NCBI RefSeq assembly: GCF_000013005.1 | Contig: NC_007722.1 | Span: 1,555,501 to 1,619,500 of the forward strand | From: Erythrobacter litoralis HTCC2594 | Lineage (GTDB): Bacteria; Pseudomonadota; Alphaproteobacteria; Sphingomonadales; Sphingomonadaceae | Direction: 5' to 3' | DNA: 64,000 bases | Part shown: positions 5,874 through 18,231 of the stretch, piece after piece | How the letters are laid out: each line of letters begins with the position of its first letter | Position numbering within the stretch: the first letter of the stretch is position 1 | The notes under the pieces: model-generated | What the model saw: only the letters and a program-made list of their open reading frames with translations | Databases searched by the model: none | What the model was told of the DNA's origin: nothing | Made by a program: the position numbers and the translations under genes

Positions 5874-6209
5874 TCAGCGCTCGTCCGAGCTGTCCGCGGG
5901 CGGCGTATTCGCCATTCGAAACACATTCCTGAAGGCGACCACTATTCCCAGGAACAGCCCCACCAACAGTGCCCAGGGATTGGTGCCGGTCAGATAGCCG
6001 ATGGCATAACCGATCACCGTCCCCCCCAGAAGCCCGCCGAGCAAGTCCGCCAGCACCCGGTTGCCGCTGCGATAATTCGCGTCGGATCCGGTGCCCTGCG
6101 GCCGGTTGCGCCCCTCTTCACGCTCGCGTGCGGCCTTCAGCCGCTCTTCGAGCGCGTCGATACGCGCATCCTCGGCAATGGGTTCCCGGGCGGGTTTTTC
6201 GTCGCTCAT
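5874..6209 (-). CDS. atpI: AtpI-family ATP synthase assembly protein
   Basis: First gene of the F0 operon. Proteins of this family help assemble the c ring. It has 111 residues: a charged N-terminal half with a short coiled-coil-like stretch (RIDALEERLKAAREREEG), then two membrane helices (LADLLGGLLGGTVIGYAIGY and PWALLVGLFLGIVVAF) with the conserved GGxxxGxxxGY pattern, and a short polar tail. It ends about 40 bases before atpB. Operon position and helical layout make the assignment firm despite low sequence conservation in the family. Confidence 0.88.
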   Translation of the reverse strand: MSDEKPAREPIAEDARIDALEERLKAAREREEGRNRPQGTGSDANYRSGNRVLADLLGGLLGGTVIGYAIGYLTGTNPWALLVGLFLGIVVAFRNVFRMANTPPADSSDER

Positions 6210-11102: not shown

Positions 11103-12413
11103 ATGGTCCCCCGCTATGCCCGCCCCGCCATGACCGCCCTGTGGGAGCCGGAGGCGAAATATCGCATCTGGTTCGAGATCGAGGCGCATGCGACCGAGAA
11201 ACTAGGCGAGCTCGGAGTGGTGCCGGAAAGCGCGGCCAAGGCCTTGTGGGACTGGTGGGCGACCGATCCCAAGATCGACGTCGAGGCGATCGACGCTATC
11301 GAAGCGGTGACCAAGCACGATGTCATCGCCTTTCTCACCTGGGTCGCCGAGAATGTCGGCGAGGAAGCACGCTTCATGCATCAGGGCATGACCAGCAGCG
11401 ATGTGCTCGACACGACGCTGGCGGTGCAGCTGGCGCGATCGACGGACATTCTGCTCGAAGACCTCGATGCGCTACTCGCCGCGATCAAGCGCCGCGCGGA
11501 AGAGCAAAAATACACGCCGACGATCGGGCGCAGCCACGGCATCCACGCCGAACCGGTGACCTTCGGCCTCAAGCTCGCGCAGGCCTATGCCGAGTTCGAT
11601 CGCTGCAAGACCCGCCTGGTCGCCGCGCGCGAGGAAATTGCCACCTGTGCCATCAGCGGCGCCGTCGGGACTTTCGCCAACATCGATCCTTCGGTCGAAG
11701 AGCATGTCGCCGACAAGCTCGGCCTCAAGCCCGAGCCGGTTAGCACGCAGGTGATCCCGCGCGACCGCCATGCGATGTTCTTCTCCACCCTCGCCGTCAT
11801 TGCCGGGTCGATCGAGCGGCTCGCGGTCGAGATTCGCCATCTCCAGCGCACCGAAGTGCTGGAAGCGGAGGAATATTTCTCACCCGGCCAGAAGGGTTCG
11901 AGCGCGATGCCGCACAAACGCAACCCGATCCTGACGGAAAACCTTACCGGCCAGGCCCGCATGATCCGTGCCTATGCCATGCCGGCGCTCGAGAATGTCG
12001 CGCTGTGGCATGAGCGCGATATCTCGCACTCCTCGGTCGAGCGCTTCATCGGCCCCGATGCCTGCATCACGCTCGATTTCGCGCTCGCGCGGCTGACCGG
12101 GGTGATCGACAAGCTGCTGGTCTATCCCGAACGCATGCAGGCCAACATGGACCGGATGGGAGGCCTGATCCATTCGCAGCGCGTGTTGCTTGCGCTCACC
12201 CAGAACGGCGTCAGCCGCGAGGATGCCTATCGCCTCGTCCAGCGCAATGCGATGAAGGTATGGGAATCGGACGGCCAGCTGATGCTGCTCGACCTGCTCA
12301 AACAGGACGCGGAAGTGACCGCCGCCCTGTCCGAAAGCGAGCTCGAAGAGCGCTTCGATCTCGAATACCATTTCAAGCACGTCGACACGATCTTCAACCG
12401 CGTCTTCGGCTAG
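11103..12413 (+). CDS. purB: adenylosuccinate lyase
   Basis: Cleaves SAICAR to AICAR and adenylosuccinate to AMP, the two fumarate-releasing steps of purine synthesis. It has 436 residues in the fumarase/aspartase superfamily. The signature loop GSSAMPHKRNPI is present. The catalytic histidine region TIGRSHGIHAEP and the MHQGMTSSDVLDT segment also match. The start MVPRYARPAMTALW matches the compact PurB of alphaproteobacteria and Bacillus. It is a stand-alone gene between radC and lapA. Confidence 0.96.
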   Translation: MVPRYARPAMTALWEPEAKYRIWFEIEAHATEKLGELGVVPESAAKALWDWWATDPKIDVEAIDAIEAVTKHDVIAFLTWVAENVGEEARFMHQGMTSSDVLDTTLAVQLARSTDILLEDLDALLAAIKRRAEEQKYTPTIGRSHGIHAEPVTFGLKLAQAYAEFDRCKTRLVAAREEIATCAISGAVGTFANIDPSVEEHVADKLGLKPEPVSTQVIPRDRHAMFFSTLAVIAGSIERLAVEIRHLQRTEVLEAEEYFSPGQKGSSAMPHKRNPILTENLTGQARMIRAYAMPALENVALWHERDISHSSVERFIGPDACITLDFALARLTGVIDKLLVYPERMQANMDRMGGLIHSQRVLLALTQNGVSREDAYRLVQRNAMKVWESDGQLMLLDLLKQDAEVTAALSESELEERFDLEYHFKHVDTIFNRVFG

Positions 12414-12484: not shown

Positions 12485-12847
12485 TTGCAAATCGTCCGCA
12501 CAATCGTCTGGGTTCTGATCCTCGTCGCGCTGTTGCTGTTTTCGTGGTTCAACTGGACCCCGGTCGAAGTGACGATCTGGGACAACCTTCTGGTCGAAAC
12601 CAAGGTCCCGGCGCTGGTGATCGTCTCCTTCCTGCTCGGCCTCTTGCCGATGTGGATGTACCATCGCGGCGTGCGCTGGACGCTGTCGCGCAAGATCGCG
12701 AGCCTGGAAAACGCCGCCCGCACCCATATCGAGCCACCGCCTGCGTCGACGGAAGATCCAGCGCCCGCACCTACGCCTGCATCGAGCACACCGCCCCCGC
12801 CGCAGCCCGACAGCGACGGCCTCCAGCCGGAAACCGACAGACCGTGA
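12485..12847 (+). CDS. LapA-domain (DUF1049) inner-membrane protein
   Basis: A 120-residue protein with two membrane helices (about 5-21, TIVWVLILVALLLFSWF; and 42-60, VPALVIVSFLLGLLPMWMY), the WTPVEVTIW linker typical of LapA/YciS-like proteins, and a disordered proline-rich tail. In alphaproteobacteria a lapA-domain gene often opens the trpF/trpB/trpA/accD cluster, as here. Its TGA overlaps the GTG of pyrF by four bases (GTGA). In E. coli LapA helps adjust lipopolysaccharide synthesis; the role here is unproven. No promoter is clear in the 71-base gap from purB. Confidence 0.85.
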   Translation: MQIVRTIVWVLILVALLLFSWFNWTPVEVTIWDNLLVETKVPALVIVSFLLGLLPMWMYHRGVRWTLSRKIASLENAARTHIEPPPASTEDPAPAPTPASSTPPPPQPDSDGLQPETDRP

Positions 12848-13518
12848 GCAACCCGGTCTTCCTCGCGCTCGACATCCCGCGGCTGGAAGCGGGCAAGGCG
12901 CTGGTCGACAAGGTCAAGGCGCATATCGGTGGTGTGAAGCTCGGCATGGAGTTCTTCTATGCCCACGGCCATCACGGGGTGCACGAAATTGCGCACTGTG
13001 GTCTGCCGGTCTTCCTCGACCTCAAGCTGCACGACATTCCCAACACCGTCGCCGCCGCGATGCAATCGATCCATGTGCTGGAGCCGGCCATCGTCACGGT
13101 CCACGCATCGGGCGGGCGCGCGATGATGGAAGACGCCAAGGCGGCGGCGGGCGAGAACACCAAGGTCGTCGGCGTAACCATGCTGACCAGCCTGGACGAG
13201 CGCGACCTCGAACGCACCGGGGTCGATGGCAGCCCGCACGATCATGTCATGCGGCTGGCCGAACTGGCGGAGAACGCCGGGCTCGACGGGATCGTCTGCT
13301 CCGGACAGGAAGTCGGCGCGGTACACAAGCAATGGAAACAGGGCTTCTTCGTTGTTCCCGGCCTGCGCCCGGCAGGCAGCGCAAGTGGTGACCAGAAGCG
13401 CGTCGTCACCCCACGCCAGGCGCGTGACGACGGTGCCAGCGTCCTGGTGATCGGCCGCCCGATCAGCAAGGCGGACGATCCGGAACAGGCTGCGCGGGAT
13501 ATCGAGGCGACGCTGTGA
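12844..13518 (+). CDS. pyrF: orotidine 5'-phosphate decarboxylase
   Basis: Decarboxylates OMP to UMP, the last step of de novo pyrimidine synthesis. It has 224 residues on a TIM barrel. The catalytic tetrad region FLDLKLHDIPNT gives D59, K61 and D64. The phosphate site is near VVPGLRP and the C-terminal LVIGRPISKADDP. The start is GTG, overlapping the lapA-domain stop by four bases. Its own TGA overlaps the GTG of the following beta-lactamase gene by the same GTGA device, so the three genes should be translated in series. Confidence 0.95.
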   Translation: MSNPVFLALDIPRLEAGKALVDKVKAHIGGVKLGMEFFYAHGHHGVHEIAHCGLPVFLDLKLHDIPNTVAAAMQSIHVLEPAIVTVHASGGRAMMEDAKAAAGENTKVVGVTMLTSLDERDLERTGVDGSPHDHVMRLAELAENAGLDGIVCSGQEVGAVHKQWKQGFFVVPGLRPAGSASGDQKRVVTPRQARDDGASVLVIGRPISKADDPEQAARDIEATL

Positions 13519-14300
13519 TCGCGCGGGTGCTGGCGCTCGCCGCCGCGCTGGCGCTGCCCGCCTGCGTGCCCGGCGAAATCCGCAGTTCGGTCGCCGAGCA
13601 GGAGGCCGACCGCGACATCATCCGCTTCGGCGAAGTGTCGTTCAGCCAATTGGCCGAGGGCGTGTGGATGCACACCACCTATCTCGACCTGATGGGCTTC
13701 GGGCCGATCCCTTCGAATGGTCTGTTGGTGGTAAACGGCGATAACACAATCCTCGTCGATACCGCCTGGACCGACGAACAGACCGAGCAAATCGTCGCCT
13801 GGGCCAGCATGGTCCTGGCCAAGCCCGTCCGCGCTGCGGTCGTCACCCATGCGCATCAGGACAAGATGGGCGGCATGGCCGCGCTGCACGGCGCGAACAT
13901 CGCGACCTGGGCGCATCCGCTGAGCAACGAACTGGCGCCCGAGGAAGGGCTGGTTCCTGCACGCAATGCCATCACCTTCGACGCAAACGGTTGGGCGACG
14001 GGCGAGGCGGCGCAATCGCTTGCGCCCTTACGCCTCTATTACCCCGGCGGAGCGCATACGCGCGACAACATCACCGTCGGCCTGCCGGAGCTTGGAATCG
14101 CCTTCGGAGGCTGCATGATCAAGGCGGGGGACGCCTCGAACCTCGGCAATCTCGCCGATGCGGACACCGCGGCCTATGCGCAATCGGTGCGTAATTTCGC
14201 AGCGGCGTTCCCCGATGCCCGGACCATTGCGATGAGCCATTCCCCGCCCGAGGGTCGCAAGGCGATCGAGCGCACGCTTGATCTCGCCGAAGAACTCTAG
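13515..14300 (+). CDS. NDM-like subclass B1 metallo-beta-lactamase, predicted lipoprotein
   Basis: A 261-residue zinc beta-lactamase expected to hydrolyse penicillins, cephalosporins and carbapenems in the periplasm. Every B1 ligand is present: H112, H114 and H181 for Zn1; D116, C200 and H242 for Zn2. The motifs THAHQDKMGGM, GGCMIK (with the substrate-binding Lys203) and GNLADAD (Asn212) closely follow NDM-1. By eye well over half of the core is identical to NDM-1 as I remember it, including VDTAWTD. A lipobox-like LPAC (Cys17) suggests membrane anchoring, as in NDM-1. It resembles the E. litoralis enzyme reported as NDM-1-like. The GTG start overlaps pyrF; trpF follows after 13 bases. Base composition matches its neighbours, so recent acquisition is not apparent. 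Confidence 0.93.
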   Translation: MIARVLALAAALALPACVPGEIRSSVAEQEADRDIIRFGEVSFSQLAEGVWMHTTYLDLMGFGPIPSNGLLVVNGDNTILVDTAWTDEQTEQIVAWASMVLAKPVRAAVVTHAHQDKMGGMAALHGANIATWAHPLSNELAPEEGLVPARNAITFDANGWATGEAAQSLAPLRLYYPGGAHTRDNITVGLPELGIAFGGCMIKAGDASNLGNLADADTAAYAQSVRNFAAAFPDARTIAMSHSPPEGRKAIERTLDLAEEL

Positions 14301-14313
14301 CAACGCGCGCGCC

Positions 14314-14943
14314 ATGACGATGATCAAGATTTGCGGACTCTCCACGCCGGAGACGATCGAGGCTGCCGTGCAGGCGGGCGCGACCCATGTCGGCTTGGTG
14401 CATTTCGCCAAGAGCCCGCGGCATGTGGAACTAGAGAAAGCCGCCGAATTGCGCGCGCTGGTGCCCGAGAGCGTCAAGGCGGTGCTGTTGCTGGTCAACG
14501 AGCAGCCCGAAGAGACCGCGCGCGCGATCCAGATCGTCAAGCCCGACGTCGTGCAGTTTCATGGCAGCGAAACGCCGCAATGGACCAAGGCGGTGCGCGA
14601 CCAGCTTGGTATCGAGGTGTGGAAAGCGCTGGGCGTACGCGAAGCGGCTACGCTGGAGAAATCGCGCCGCTATGAAGGCGCGGTCGACCGGCTGCTGTTC
14701 GATTCCCCGGCAAAGAAGTTGCCGGGCGGCAATGGAGTGACGTTCCAGTGGGACGTGCTCGCCGGCTTCGAGCACCATACGGCCTGGGGGCTGGCAGGCG
14801 GGCTGACGCCGGACAACGTCGGTGATGCGATCCGCCAAACCGGCGCGGAGCTTGTCGATGCCTCAAGTGGTGTTGAGAGCGCTCCGGGCGTCAAGGATAT
14901 TGCGAAAATCGAAGCGTTCTGCGAAGCCGCAAGAAACGCATAG
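14314..14943 (+). CDS. trpF: phosphoribosylanthranilate isomerase
   Basis: Converts N-(5-phosphoribosyl)anthranilate to CdRP in tryptophan synthesis. It has 209 residues on a TIM barrel. The start [13 protein letters not shown] places the catalytic Cys at residue 7, the general acid Asp is in LLFDSPAKK, and the phosphate-binding end [12 protein letters not shown]...DASSGVES is complete. The ATG at 14314 is preferred over an in-frame upstream start that would run into the beta-lactamase gene. In the mobile element Tn125 a trpF gene also lies downstream of blaNDM. Confidence 0.94.
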
Positions 14944-14955
14944 ACCCCCTACTCC

Positions 14956-14980
14956 CGTTCGCCCTGTGCTTGTCGAAGGG
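14956..14980. repeat. dispersed repeat in the trpF-trpB gap, left arm
   Basis: CGTTCGCCCTGTGCTTGTCG followed by AAGGG. It is an inverted match to 15021-15045 and belongs to the same repeat family as 3484, 3547, 19630 and 19692. Confidence 0.65.
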
Positions 14981-15020
14981 CCGTACTTCTTTTTTACGCT
15001 GCGCCAGAAGCAAGAACGGG

Positions 15021-15045
15021 GCTTCGACAGGCTCAGCCCGAACGG
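15021..15045. repeat. dispersed repeat in the trpF-trpB gap, right arm, with T tract
   Basis: CTTCGACAGGCTCAGCCCG plus AACGG pairs with the arm at 14956-14980 to form a stem of about 20 bp closing a 40-base loop. It is followed at once by ATTTTTT, and the trpB GTG follows directly. The arrangement looks like a terminator or attenuator and would also place the trpB initiation site beside a stable stem. Confidence 0.6.
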
Positions 15046-15052
15046 ATTTTTT

Positions 15053-16267
15053 GTGGCAACCAAGGCGAATTCCTTCCGCACCCAGCCTGACGAGCGCGGG
15101 CATTTCGGCCAGTTCGGTGGGCGCTATGTCGCTGAAACGCTGATGCCGCTCGTGCTGGACCTAGAGCGCGAATATCGCGCGGCGCAGGCCGATCCTGCCT
15201 TTCAGGCCCAATTCGACGACCTGCTCGAACACTACGTCGGCCGCCCCTCCCCGCTCTATTTCGCAGAACGCCTCACCGAGGCGCTCGGCGGCGCGCAGGT
15301 CTGGTTCAAACGCGACGAGCTCAACCACACTGGCGCGCATAAGATCAACAATTGCATCGGGCAGATCCTGCTCGCCGAGCGCATGGGTAAGACCCGCATC
15401 ATCGCGGAGACCGGCGCGGGGCAACACGGCGTCGCCACCGCCACCGTCTGCGCGCGGTTCGGCCTGCCTTGCGTCATCTACATGGGCGCGGAGGACGTAA
15501 AGCGGCAGTCGCCCAATGTCTTCCGCATGAAGCTGCTCGGCGCAGAAGTCGTCCCCGTCACCAGCGGCGGCGCGACGCTCAAGGACGCGATGAACGAAGG
15601 GCTGCGCGACTGGGTCGCGAATGTCCACGACACCTTCTACATCATCGGCACCGCCGCCGGGCCGCATCCCTATCCGGAGCTGGTGCGCGATTTCCAGAGC
15701 GTGATCGGCAAGGAAGCCCGCGCGCAAATGCTCGACCGCACGGGCCGCCTGCCCGATTTGCTGATCGCCTGCATCGGCGGCGGCTCCAACGCGCTCGGCC
15801 TGTTCCACCCGTTTCTTGACGATCCGGACGTGAAGATGCTCGGCGTCGAAGCGGCGGGCCATGGTCTTGACGGCGACCAGCATGCCGCCAGCCTGCTCGG
15901 CGGCGCGCCCGGCATATTGCACGGCAACAAGACCTACCTGCTGCAGGACGAGGACGGCCAGATCACCGAAGGCCACTCGATCAGCGCCGGCCTCGACTAC
16001 CCCGGCATCGGCCCCGAACACGCATGGCTGAAAGAGTCAGGCCGCGTCGAATACACCGCCGTGACCGATGACGAGGCCTTGGACGGCTTCCAGCTGCTTT
16101 GCCGCACCGAGGGGATTATTCCCGCTCTGGAACCGTCACACGCCATCGCGGCGGTCGCCGACCGCGCCAAACAGATGAGCGAGGACCAGATCATCCTGAT
16201 GAACCTGTGCGGACGCGGGGATAAGGACATCTTCACGGTGGCGGAGAAGCTGGGAGTGGAGATGTAA
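15053..16267 (+). CDS. trpB: tryptophan synthase beta chain
   Basis: Joins indole and serine to make tryptophan, using PLP bound to Lys97 in NHTGAHKIN. It has 404 residues, the usual length, starting at GTG ([26 protein letters not shown]). The GGGSNA phosphate loop and a C-terminal NLCGRGDKD are present. The upstream in-frame extension is repeat sequence, so the GTG right after the T tract is the likely start, although no good Shine-Dalgarno is visible before it. Its TAA shares one base with the ATG of the next small gene. Confidence 0.95.
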
Positions 16268-16592
16268 TGCGTCTACGCCGGGAAGCTGAGAACAAGAATT
16301 CAACTGAATGGCCAGCGTTTCATCATCTAATGGATTGCTACTGGCATCAAACCGCCGATGCATTTTACTCCGAGTTCAAGGAAGCACTCGACGATTTTCG
16401 TGAATGCGAAGGACAAGAAAGGTTTGAGCAACTCAAAGCCGAGCTTTGTGCTCTTCGAGATCAAGGGCGCTTTCCGAGACCCGGGCAGTTGCGAGTTAAT
16501 TATAACAAACCATTTTGGCGCGGCTATGCGCGTATCGTGACCACGAGAGATATCGCAACATGTGATCCAATTCTTGGGTCTAGGGAAACTCA

Positions 16593-16596
<4 letters not shown>
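16267..16596 (+). CDS. small protein resembling a CDI immunity (CdiI-like) protein, inserted in the trp operon
   Basis: A 109-residue soluble protein whose DNA is visibly more AT-rich (about half G+C by eye) than the surrounding trp genes, with non-typical codons (AAT, TTT, ATT, GAA). The pattern FHHLMDCYWHQ, then EALDDF and ERFEQLKAEL, recalls the YxHQ...A..F...ELxxLL layout of contact-dependent-inhibition immunity proteins. That link is from memory of the family. It begins on the last base of the trpB stop and overlaps trpA by ATGA. No cdiA toxin is nearby. It is probably a transferred orphan immunity gene; otherwise an unknown protein. Confidence 0.5.

Positions 16597-18231
<1,635 letters not shown>

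Follow-up and report, generated by a model that had tools for sequence, protein, structure and literature searches.

Why do blaNDM and blaAFM, the mobile beta-lactamase genes of hospital bacteria, travel with ble and trpF, and where did this gene row come from? The question is raised by a 64,000-nucleotide (nt) stretch of the genome of a marine bacterium, Erythrobacter litoralis HTCC2594 (NC_007722.1, positions 1,555,501 to 1,619,500; here called the window), in which a gene for a subclass B1 metallo-beta-lactamase (bla) lies between pyrF and trpF. A first-pass annotation of the window had noted that the bla stop lies 13 bases before the trpF ATG, that no ble separates the two genes, and that Tn125-type elements carry the order bla-ble-trpF. 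All three observations were borne out: the spacer occupies 14301-14313, and the start and end coordinates given were exact; no ble was found in the window's genome (G000) at E ≤ 1e-15; and the bla-ble-trpF order is seen on NDM and AFM records. The annotation had further proposed that the mobile bla-trpF linkage derives from an alphaproteobacterial operon like this one, with ble inserted later. With a probability of roughly 85%, we conclude that blaNDM-ble-trpF and blaAFM-ble-trpF are slices of a sphingomonad pyrF-bla-ble-trpF-GH109 locus; the pyrF-trpF interval of such loci is a cargo slot, which in the window holds bla. Coordinates without a locus label are positions in the window, and labels for loci (such as L001), genomes (such as G000), and protein clusters (such as P0246) are our own.

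The product of the window bla scored 222.7 bits against the subclass B1 profile NF033088 (curated cut-off 200) and is thus a B1 member. Its scores against the blaNDM (NF000259, 312.4 bits, cut-off 580) and blaAFM (NF033736, 319.6 bits, cut-off 590) profiles place it outside both families, to which it is 55% and 57% identical, respectively. Residues H112, H114, D116, H181, C200, and H242 are common to this enzyme, NDM-1, and AFM-2 (H-x-H-x-D, H, C, H); we take them to be the zinc ligands. Cys17 (..LPAC) aligns with the signal-peptide cysteine of NDM and AFM, and the enzyme is probably periplasmic and lipid-anchored through this residue, judging from its sequence. Residues 20-261 and 23-261 correspond letter for letter to the PDB chains 6v72_A and 6v3u_A ("Beta-lactamase II"). 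The window bla is the published carbapenemase gene of E. litoralis HTCC 2594, ElBla2. It occupies genome positions 1,569,015-1,569,800 (786 bp), and the paper gives positions 1,569,105-1,569,800 for a 786-bp open reading frame (ORF) (PMC5770381). When expressed in Escherichia coli, ElBla2 hydrolyzed carbapenems and raised minimum inhibitory concentrations; its flanking genes were found conserved in four Erythrobacter genomes, and in the authors' interpretation bla has been lost elsewhere and is not mobile (PMC5770381). The main text of that paper does not name trpF, pyrF, or ble, and its abstract, Results, and early Discussion do not connect the locus with Tn125 or AFM.

The survey suggested by the first-pass annotation showed that the window is one case of a recurring gene order. 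When 397 genomes of the family were searched with a B1 alignment (E ≤ 1e-30; loci extending 1.5 kb to each side), bla of this kind was found in 19, and in 17 of these, the window included, it lies between pyrF and trpF, showing that the order is not due to chance. The two exceptions are the bla genes of L042 and L043. The gap between bla and trpF is about 85 nt or less in 14 of the 17 slot loci; in the other three, a reverse ORF (L031, L039) or ble plus a reverse ORF (L033) intervenes. Eight of the 17 slot loci have a Tn125-type TrpF beside bla (60-69% identical to Tn125 TrpF). The window TrpF belongs to another type, 46% identical to that of Tn125. Other slot cargo comprises a GNAT gene (L091, by Pfam), SIMPL-like and GST-like genes (by eye), and further ORFs without names. 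The sequences suggest that the pyrF-trpF interval is a general insertion slot.

Searches by genus brought up no genomes beyond those already known. A separate scan of contigs returned 20 loci, namely four chromosomal loci of the pyrF-bla-trpF type (L005, L006, L016, L017), one AFM locus (L007), eight NDM loci (L008-L015), and seven others (L018-L024). The last group holds NDM-related B1 genes that are 41-47% identical to the window Bla and have neither pyrF nor trpF in the stretch; their hosts are Henriciella, Marinicaulis, a Lysobacterales metagenome-assembled genome (MAG), and other MAGs. Bla-free pyrF-trpF intervals with other ORFs were seen in L045, L048, L052, L055, L058, L088, and L091. 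Within the window's genus, two TrpF types that are 42-48% identical occur (window versus L030, L031, L026), and the flanking genes pyrF and trpB are well conserved (88-94% and 89-94% identical, the latter figure holding where trpB lies in the stretch).

Two neighbors of the chromosomal locus are retained beside the mobile genes: the end of pyrF at blaAFM and the end of a GH109 gene at the Tn125 trpF. At the former, the sequence GAGATTGAGGCGACATTATGA (L003:5918-5938) reads EIEATL-stop. Among 54 distinct sphingomonad PyrF ends, 48 are IEATL, four IEGTL, one IEETL, and one VEATL, and the chance of IEATL at the blaAFM position is about 6e-7 in random sequence. The final A of the TTA codon is at once the first base of the blaAFM ATG, giving an ATGA overlap (L003:5935-5938) of the same geometry as in L006, L032, and the window, where CTG is followed by overlapping GTG (13515-13517) and TGA (13516-13518). 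The fragment preceding blaAFM had been considered as cmlA, which was not borne out; the matches showed floR. The floR match runs up to position 5916 and no further, although the query continued to 5990; thus, the foreign DNA starts at the pyrF remnant. Among 40 matches listed, 24 were AFM records (the other 16 being NDM), and these 24 cover the remnant fully with at least 99.9% identity.

The second remnant lies in the Tn125 ORF called dsbD (L001:2892-3929, reverse, 346 amino acids), whose residues 35-148 match DsbD_N and whose residues 159-249 match Glyco_hydro_109_C. By sequence, this ORF joins the N-terminus of DsbD to the C-terminus of a GH109 protein, with the fusion point near L001:3449. 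Homologues of the GH109 part (E ≤ 1e-30) were found in five of the 397 family genomes, three of them 70-77% identical, and in three of 70 genomes of genus g42 (78% in G413), one of which is common to the family set. In L104, L109, and L110, the GH109 gene (75-78% identical) stands tail-to-tail with trpF and before trpB, matching its place beside trpF in Tn125. The window locus is without this GH109-trpF neighborhood.

The mobile records themselves share one block. The order bla-ble-trpF was checked on the NDM records L001, L002, and L008-L015 and on the AFM records L003 and L007. Seven of the NDM records (L001, L009-L014) continue with the 'dsbD' ORF, cutA, groES, and groEL, the last being cut in L010; in L002, L008, and L015, the downstream part is truncated or rearranged. 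In both AFM records, the trpF match extends only to residue 184. Tn125 resembles the window in that bla precedes a trpF of the same orientation and the B1 enzymes are related; it differs by the ble between them, the other TrpF type, the GH109/DsbD fusion downstream, and the mobile elements around. The ISCR29-linked blaAFM-ble-trpF described in PMC9602987 likewise has its bla start over a pyrF stop, but it retains only the last six pyrF codons, contains ble, and has the trpF matched only to residue 184. When L001, L011, and L003 were compared with the window (blastn, E ≤ 1e-3), only bla and trpF matched, and the mobile elements flanking the NDM and AFM records were not found in it; other insertion sequences were not sought. 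Between NDM and AFM, the shared block differs at 138 of 798 positions in bla, 38 of 366 in ble, and 87 of 554 in trpF. Since this divergence is far above what the decades since mobilization would allow, the two were apparently captured separately from related donors.

Phylogenetic trees place the mobile proteins among sphingomonad relatives. Besides the loci with bla, ble, or GH109, the TrpF trees took in those 30 family loci whose TrpF is closest to that of Tn125, out of 379 genomes with a match; the unlinked TrpF sequences are hence a selected sample. L033, a partial duplicate of L087, was omitted; an outgroup tree omitted L033, L076, L004, and seven P rows, and duplicates from the same genome were merged. 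In the 75-row TrpF tree (bootstrap not fully settled), Tn125 and AFM TrpF pair (support 100/99) inside a 54-row sphingomonad clade (97/93) with seven bla-linked, six ble-linked, one bla- and ble-linked, and 38 other rows. The window TrpF falls in another, 20-row group (86/42) with a 17-row core (100/99). The first-pass annotation had held that firm clustering of Tn125 TrpF with a bla-free lineage, away from all bla-linked TrpF, would refute its proposal. The nearest tips are indeed Croceicoccus/Novosphingobium sequences without known bla, in a 21-row group, but this placement is weak (85/87). In the quick outgroup tree, forcing the mobile pair together with the bla-linked L005, L030, and L031 (approximately unbiased [AU] test, p = 0.187) or L016 and L017 (p = 0.441) was not rejected. 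Firm clustering with a bla-free lineage was thus not observed, nor is it firmly excluded.

In the 52-row Bla tree, NDM and AFM group together (100/100) within a 43-row clade (96/100) that holds all 17 slot-linked bla; their branching inside this clade lacks resolution. A branch with support 94/90 sets the eight bla genes of other context to one side, and L043 has a very long branch. The ble label of four rows of this tree was assigned solely from an equally long contig of a Ble cluster. In the 58-row Ble tree, the mobile ble sequences fall weakly into a 12-row group with five bla-linked ble. Metagenome proteins at 74-89% identity to NDM were considered as nearer relatives and rejected as noisy NDM reads: the alignments of P0246, P0249, P0251, and P0255 consist of exact NDM blocks broken by frame-shifted stretches. 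This verdict comes from these four alignments; P0252, P0266, and P0269 were scored only.

Homologues of ble_MBL are present in 30 of the 397 family genomes; in 16 of these, ble lies between pyrF and trpF within the stretch retrieved. It adjoins pyrF in L074, and 13 have neither pyrF nor trpF within the stretch. Two of the 16 slots hold ble and bla together. In L030, the order is pyrF-ble-bla-trpF, and the Bla is that of Erythrobacter sp. SDW2 (266/266 residues). In L033/L087, it is pyrF, a 161-amino-acid gene, bla, ble, a reverse ORF, and trpF, and the Bla is that of Pontixanthobacter sp. CEM42 (262/262). NDM and AFM share the bla-ble-trpF order with identical spacers of 3 and 4 nt. Because ble sits in the slot of 16 sphingomonad genomes and the NDM and AFM spacers are the same, ble was probably present in the chromosomal locus before mobilization. 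The proposal that ble was inserted later may therefore stand for a chromosomal event and hardly for one after mobilization. As a side observation, in each of the Ble/Bla cluster pairs P0170/P0297, P0174/P0290, P0143/P0307, and P0131/P0279 the two contigs are of equal length, being 774,642, 44,307, 2,537, and 2,880,971 bp, respectively, the last from Parerythrobacter aurantius. Further loci with both genes are therefore likely in this species and in metagenomes.

The following course of events is consistent with these data. In Erythrobacteraceae and other Sphingomonadaceae, the pyrF-trpF interval of a pyrF-trpFBA-accD row would serve as a cargo slot, holding bla here and ble, bla plus ble, or other genes in other species. 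Within the window's genus, it looks as if trpF, together with bla, has been replaced by recombination between the conserved flanking genes. The window bla is probably read from the pyrF message through translational coupling at the overlapping stop and start, and its native role may be tolerance to natural beta-lactams. The donor locus would have been pyrF(end)-bla-ble-trpF-(convergent GH109 gene)-(trpB) in unsampled sphingomonads. From it, the AFM slice would take in the final six codons and the stop of pyrF, behind a 5' piece of floR, and the Tn125 slice would stop inside the GH109 gene, fused to the 5' part of dsbD and followed by cutA-groES-groEL. Capture would thereby have moved bla behind outside sequences, the floR fragment for AFM and the ISAba125 promoter for NDM. 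The position of blaNDM behind this promoter is published, and the first six NDM residues are reported to match aphA6 (PMC8894482). We consider it rather probable that NDM and AFM represent two captures at one chromosomal site, between pyrF and trpB, in two related sphingomonads not yet sampled, which by their TrpF would stand near Croceicoccus/Novosphingobium and would have the native order pyrF-bla-ble-trpF-GH109-trpB.

Several observations weigh against a sphingomonad slot as the source. Bla, ble, a Tn125-type trpF, and GH109 were not found together in one genome among those searched. L033/L087, the sole genome read with the order bla-ble-trpF, has about 560 nt and the reverse ORF between ble and trpF, another gene before bla, and a window-type TrpF; in L030, the order is ble-bla. 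The TrpF rows linked to GH109 are not of the Tn125 type, and two further GH109 loci at 70% identity or more (L105, L106) have no trpF or pyrF in the stretch retrieved. There is no bla in G289, which shares its TrpF, one of those closest to Tn125 TrpF, with Croceicoccus sp. Ery15. The grouping of mobile with bla-linked ble is weak (87/42), and a sixth bla-linked ble, that of L033, falls outside. A pyrF remnant was sought upstream of blaNDM and not found. A near-identical chromosomal bla of a donor species was not found either, the closest real non-mobile bla being about 58% identical to NDM (both among the best 120 of 391 matches listed). Finally, the xanthomonad nature of the dsbD-groEL part is taken from a paper.

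In a published hypothesis, ISCR27 mobilized a blaNDM progenitor from Xanthomonas or a relative, with bla-ble-trpF-dsbD-cutA-groES-groEL as one piece of xanthomonad chromosome. A Xanthomonas progenitor is the hypothesis given in PMC8894482, and the groES and groEL of pNDM-1_Dok01 were most like those of Pseudoxanthomonas/Xanthomonas (PMC3179503). However, TrpF, Ble, and Bla group with sphingomonads, and Tn125 TrpF has no more than 39-41% identity to its counterpart in a Lysobacterales MAG (the trees were built without a true Xanthomonas TrpF). Moreover, the fusion of DsbD_N and GH109 in the 'dsbD' ORF marks a joint within the supposed single piece, and AFM bears a sphingomonad-type pyrF end. 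We therefore regard a xanthomonad origin of the whole piece as very unlikely. Even less credence is due to a caulobacterial donor such as Brevundimonas, which early database matches had pointed to: in 2011, the best matches of the ble and Tat/GH109 parts were from Brevundimonas (64% and 75%; PMC3179503), and in 2013, the best ble match was from Caulobacter crescentus (61%; PMC3639163). Among the matches listed now, sphingomonads are closer, with 76% for ble (Parerythrobacter aurantius), 78% for the GH109 part (G413), and 76% for TrpF (Croceicoccus). The ble of Brevundimonas/Caulobacteraceae lies outside the group of bla-linked ble, though this group is weak. The GH109 part was matched in none of 289 class genomes (E ≤ 1e-40), a sample without a known positive that shows little.

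A different doubt concerns the window rather than the donor family. The bla-trpF adjacency of E. litoralis and that of the NDM/AFM donors could have independent origins, all within sphingomonads, and the variable slot cargo (ble, GNAT, SIMPL, other ORFs) and the two TrpF types beside bla would fit such convergence. Yet the NDM and AFM enzymes share a clade with the slot-linked bla that excludes the eight bla of other context, so that it is enough to assume that bla entered the slot once, before the split, and we think convergence unlikely. The derivation of the mobile linkage from an alphaproteobacterial operon is well supported by the TrpF and Bla trees and by the pyrF and GH109 remnants, with the reservation that the window itself does not have a Tn125-type TrpF. 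A comparable case is that of the Kluyvera/CTX-M progenitor loci (Kluyvera is mentioned in PMC3179503), in which chromosomal relatives are likewise known whose neighboring sequence travels with the mobile form. In contrast to that case, the locus type and the family were found here, and not the donor species.

Features of the window around bla, in positions of the 64,000-nt window
Feature	Position	Strand	Remarks
purB	11103..12413	+	5' neighbor of the conserved locus; ORF call
Small membrane protein gene	12485..12847	+	Overlaps the pyrF start; same position occupied in many related loci
pyrF, orotidine-5'-phosphate decarboxylase	12844..13518	+	248.3 bits, cut-off 193; ends D-I-E-A-T-L-stop
bla start/pyrF stop overlap, GTGA	13515..13518	+	Sequence
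bla (ElBla2), subclass B1 metallo-beta-lactamase	13515..14300	+	GTG start, 261 amino acids, stop 14298-14300; lipoprotein-type signal
bla-trpF spacer	14301..14313	+	13 nt, bla stop to trpF ATG (14314)
trpF, phosphoribosylanthranilate isomerase	14314..14943	+	257.1 bits (NCBIfam), cut-off 216; not Tn125 type
trpB, tryptophan synthase beta subunit	15053..16267	+	636 bits, cut-off 392.45
trpA	16593..17372	+	ORF; conserved order in L006, L016, L017
accD	17383..18231	+	ORF; conserved order in L006, L016, L017

The whole row lies on the + strand and reads purB, small membrane protein gene, pyrF, bla, trpF, trpB, a small CdiI_2-like gene, trpA, and accD. The presumed purB gene lies upstream of pyrF at 84-96% identity in bla loci of the same genus, where it is partly cut. 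The small membrane protein gene has no Pfam or NCBIfam match and is presumably LapA-like; the names trpA and accD are likewise our assumption. The small gene at 16267-16596, which runs into the start of trpA, scored 34.2 bits against the CdiI_2 immunity protein profile PF18593 (cut-off 26.7). The distance from trpB to trpA is within 10 nt in L006, L016, and L017. In the trpF-trpB spacer (14957-15046), an apparent imperfect inverted repeat around TTGTCGAAGGGCCG and CGGGGCTTCGACAGG was seen by eye and is perhaps an element like the repetitive extragenic palindromic (REP) sequences.

NDM is among the most important carbapenemases, and for its natural source a 2022 survey gives Xanthomonas as a hypothesis (PMC8894482). 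The titles and abstract openings listed from the open-access literature proposed no sphingomonad or pyrF-trpF source for NDM or AFM; such a proposal may have appeared in print earlier. The remnants point to a chromosomal address and a bacterial family, rather than Xanthomonas, as the source of both enzymes, and the slot locus explains why trpF and ble travel with blaNDM. The remnants further suggest that one address served twice, for NDM and for AFM. If the reading of two captures from sphingomonads is true, it would replace the Xanthomonas origin of the resistance gene. The order pyrF-bla-ble-trpF-GH109-trpB would then define exactly what to look for in a living progenitor, making the origin testable by the sequencing of sphingomonads.

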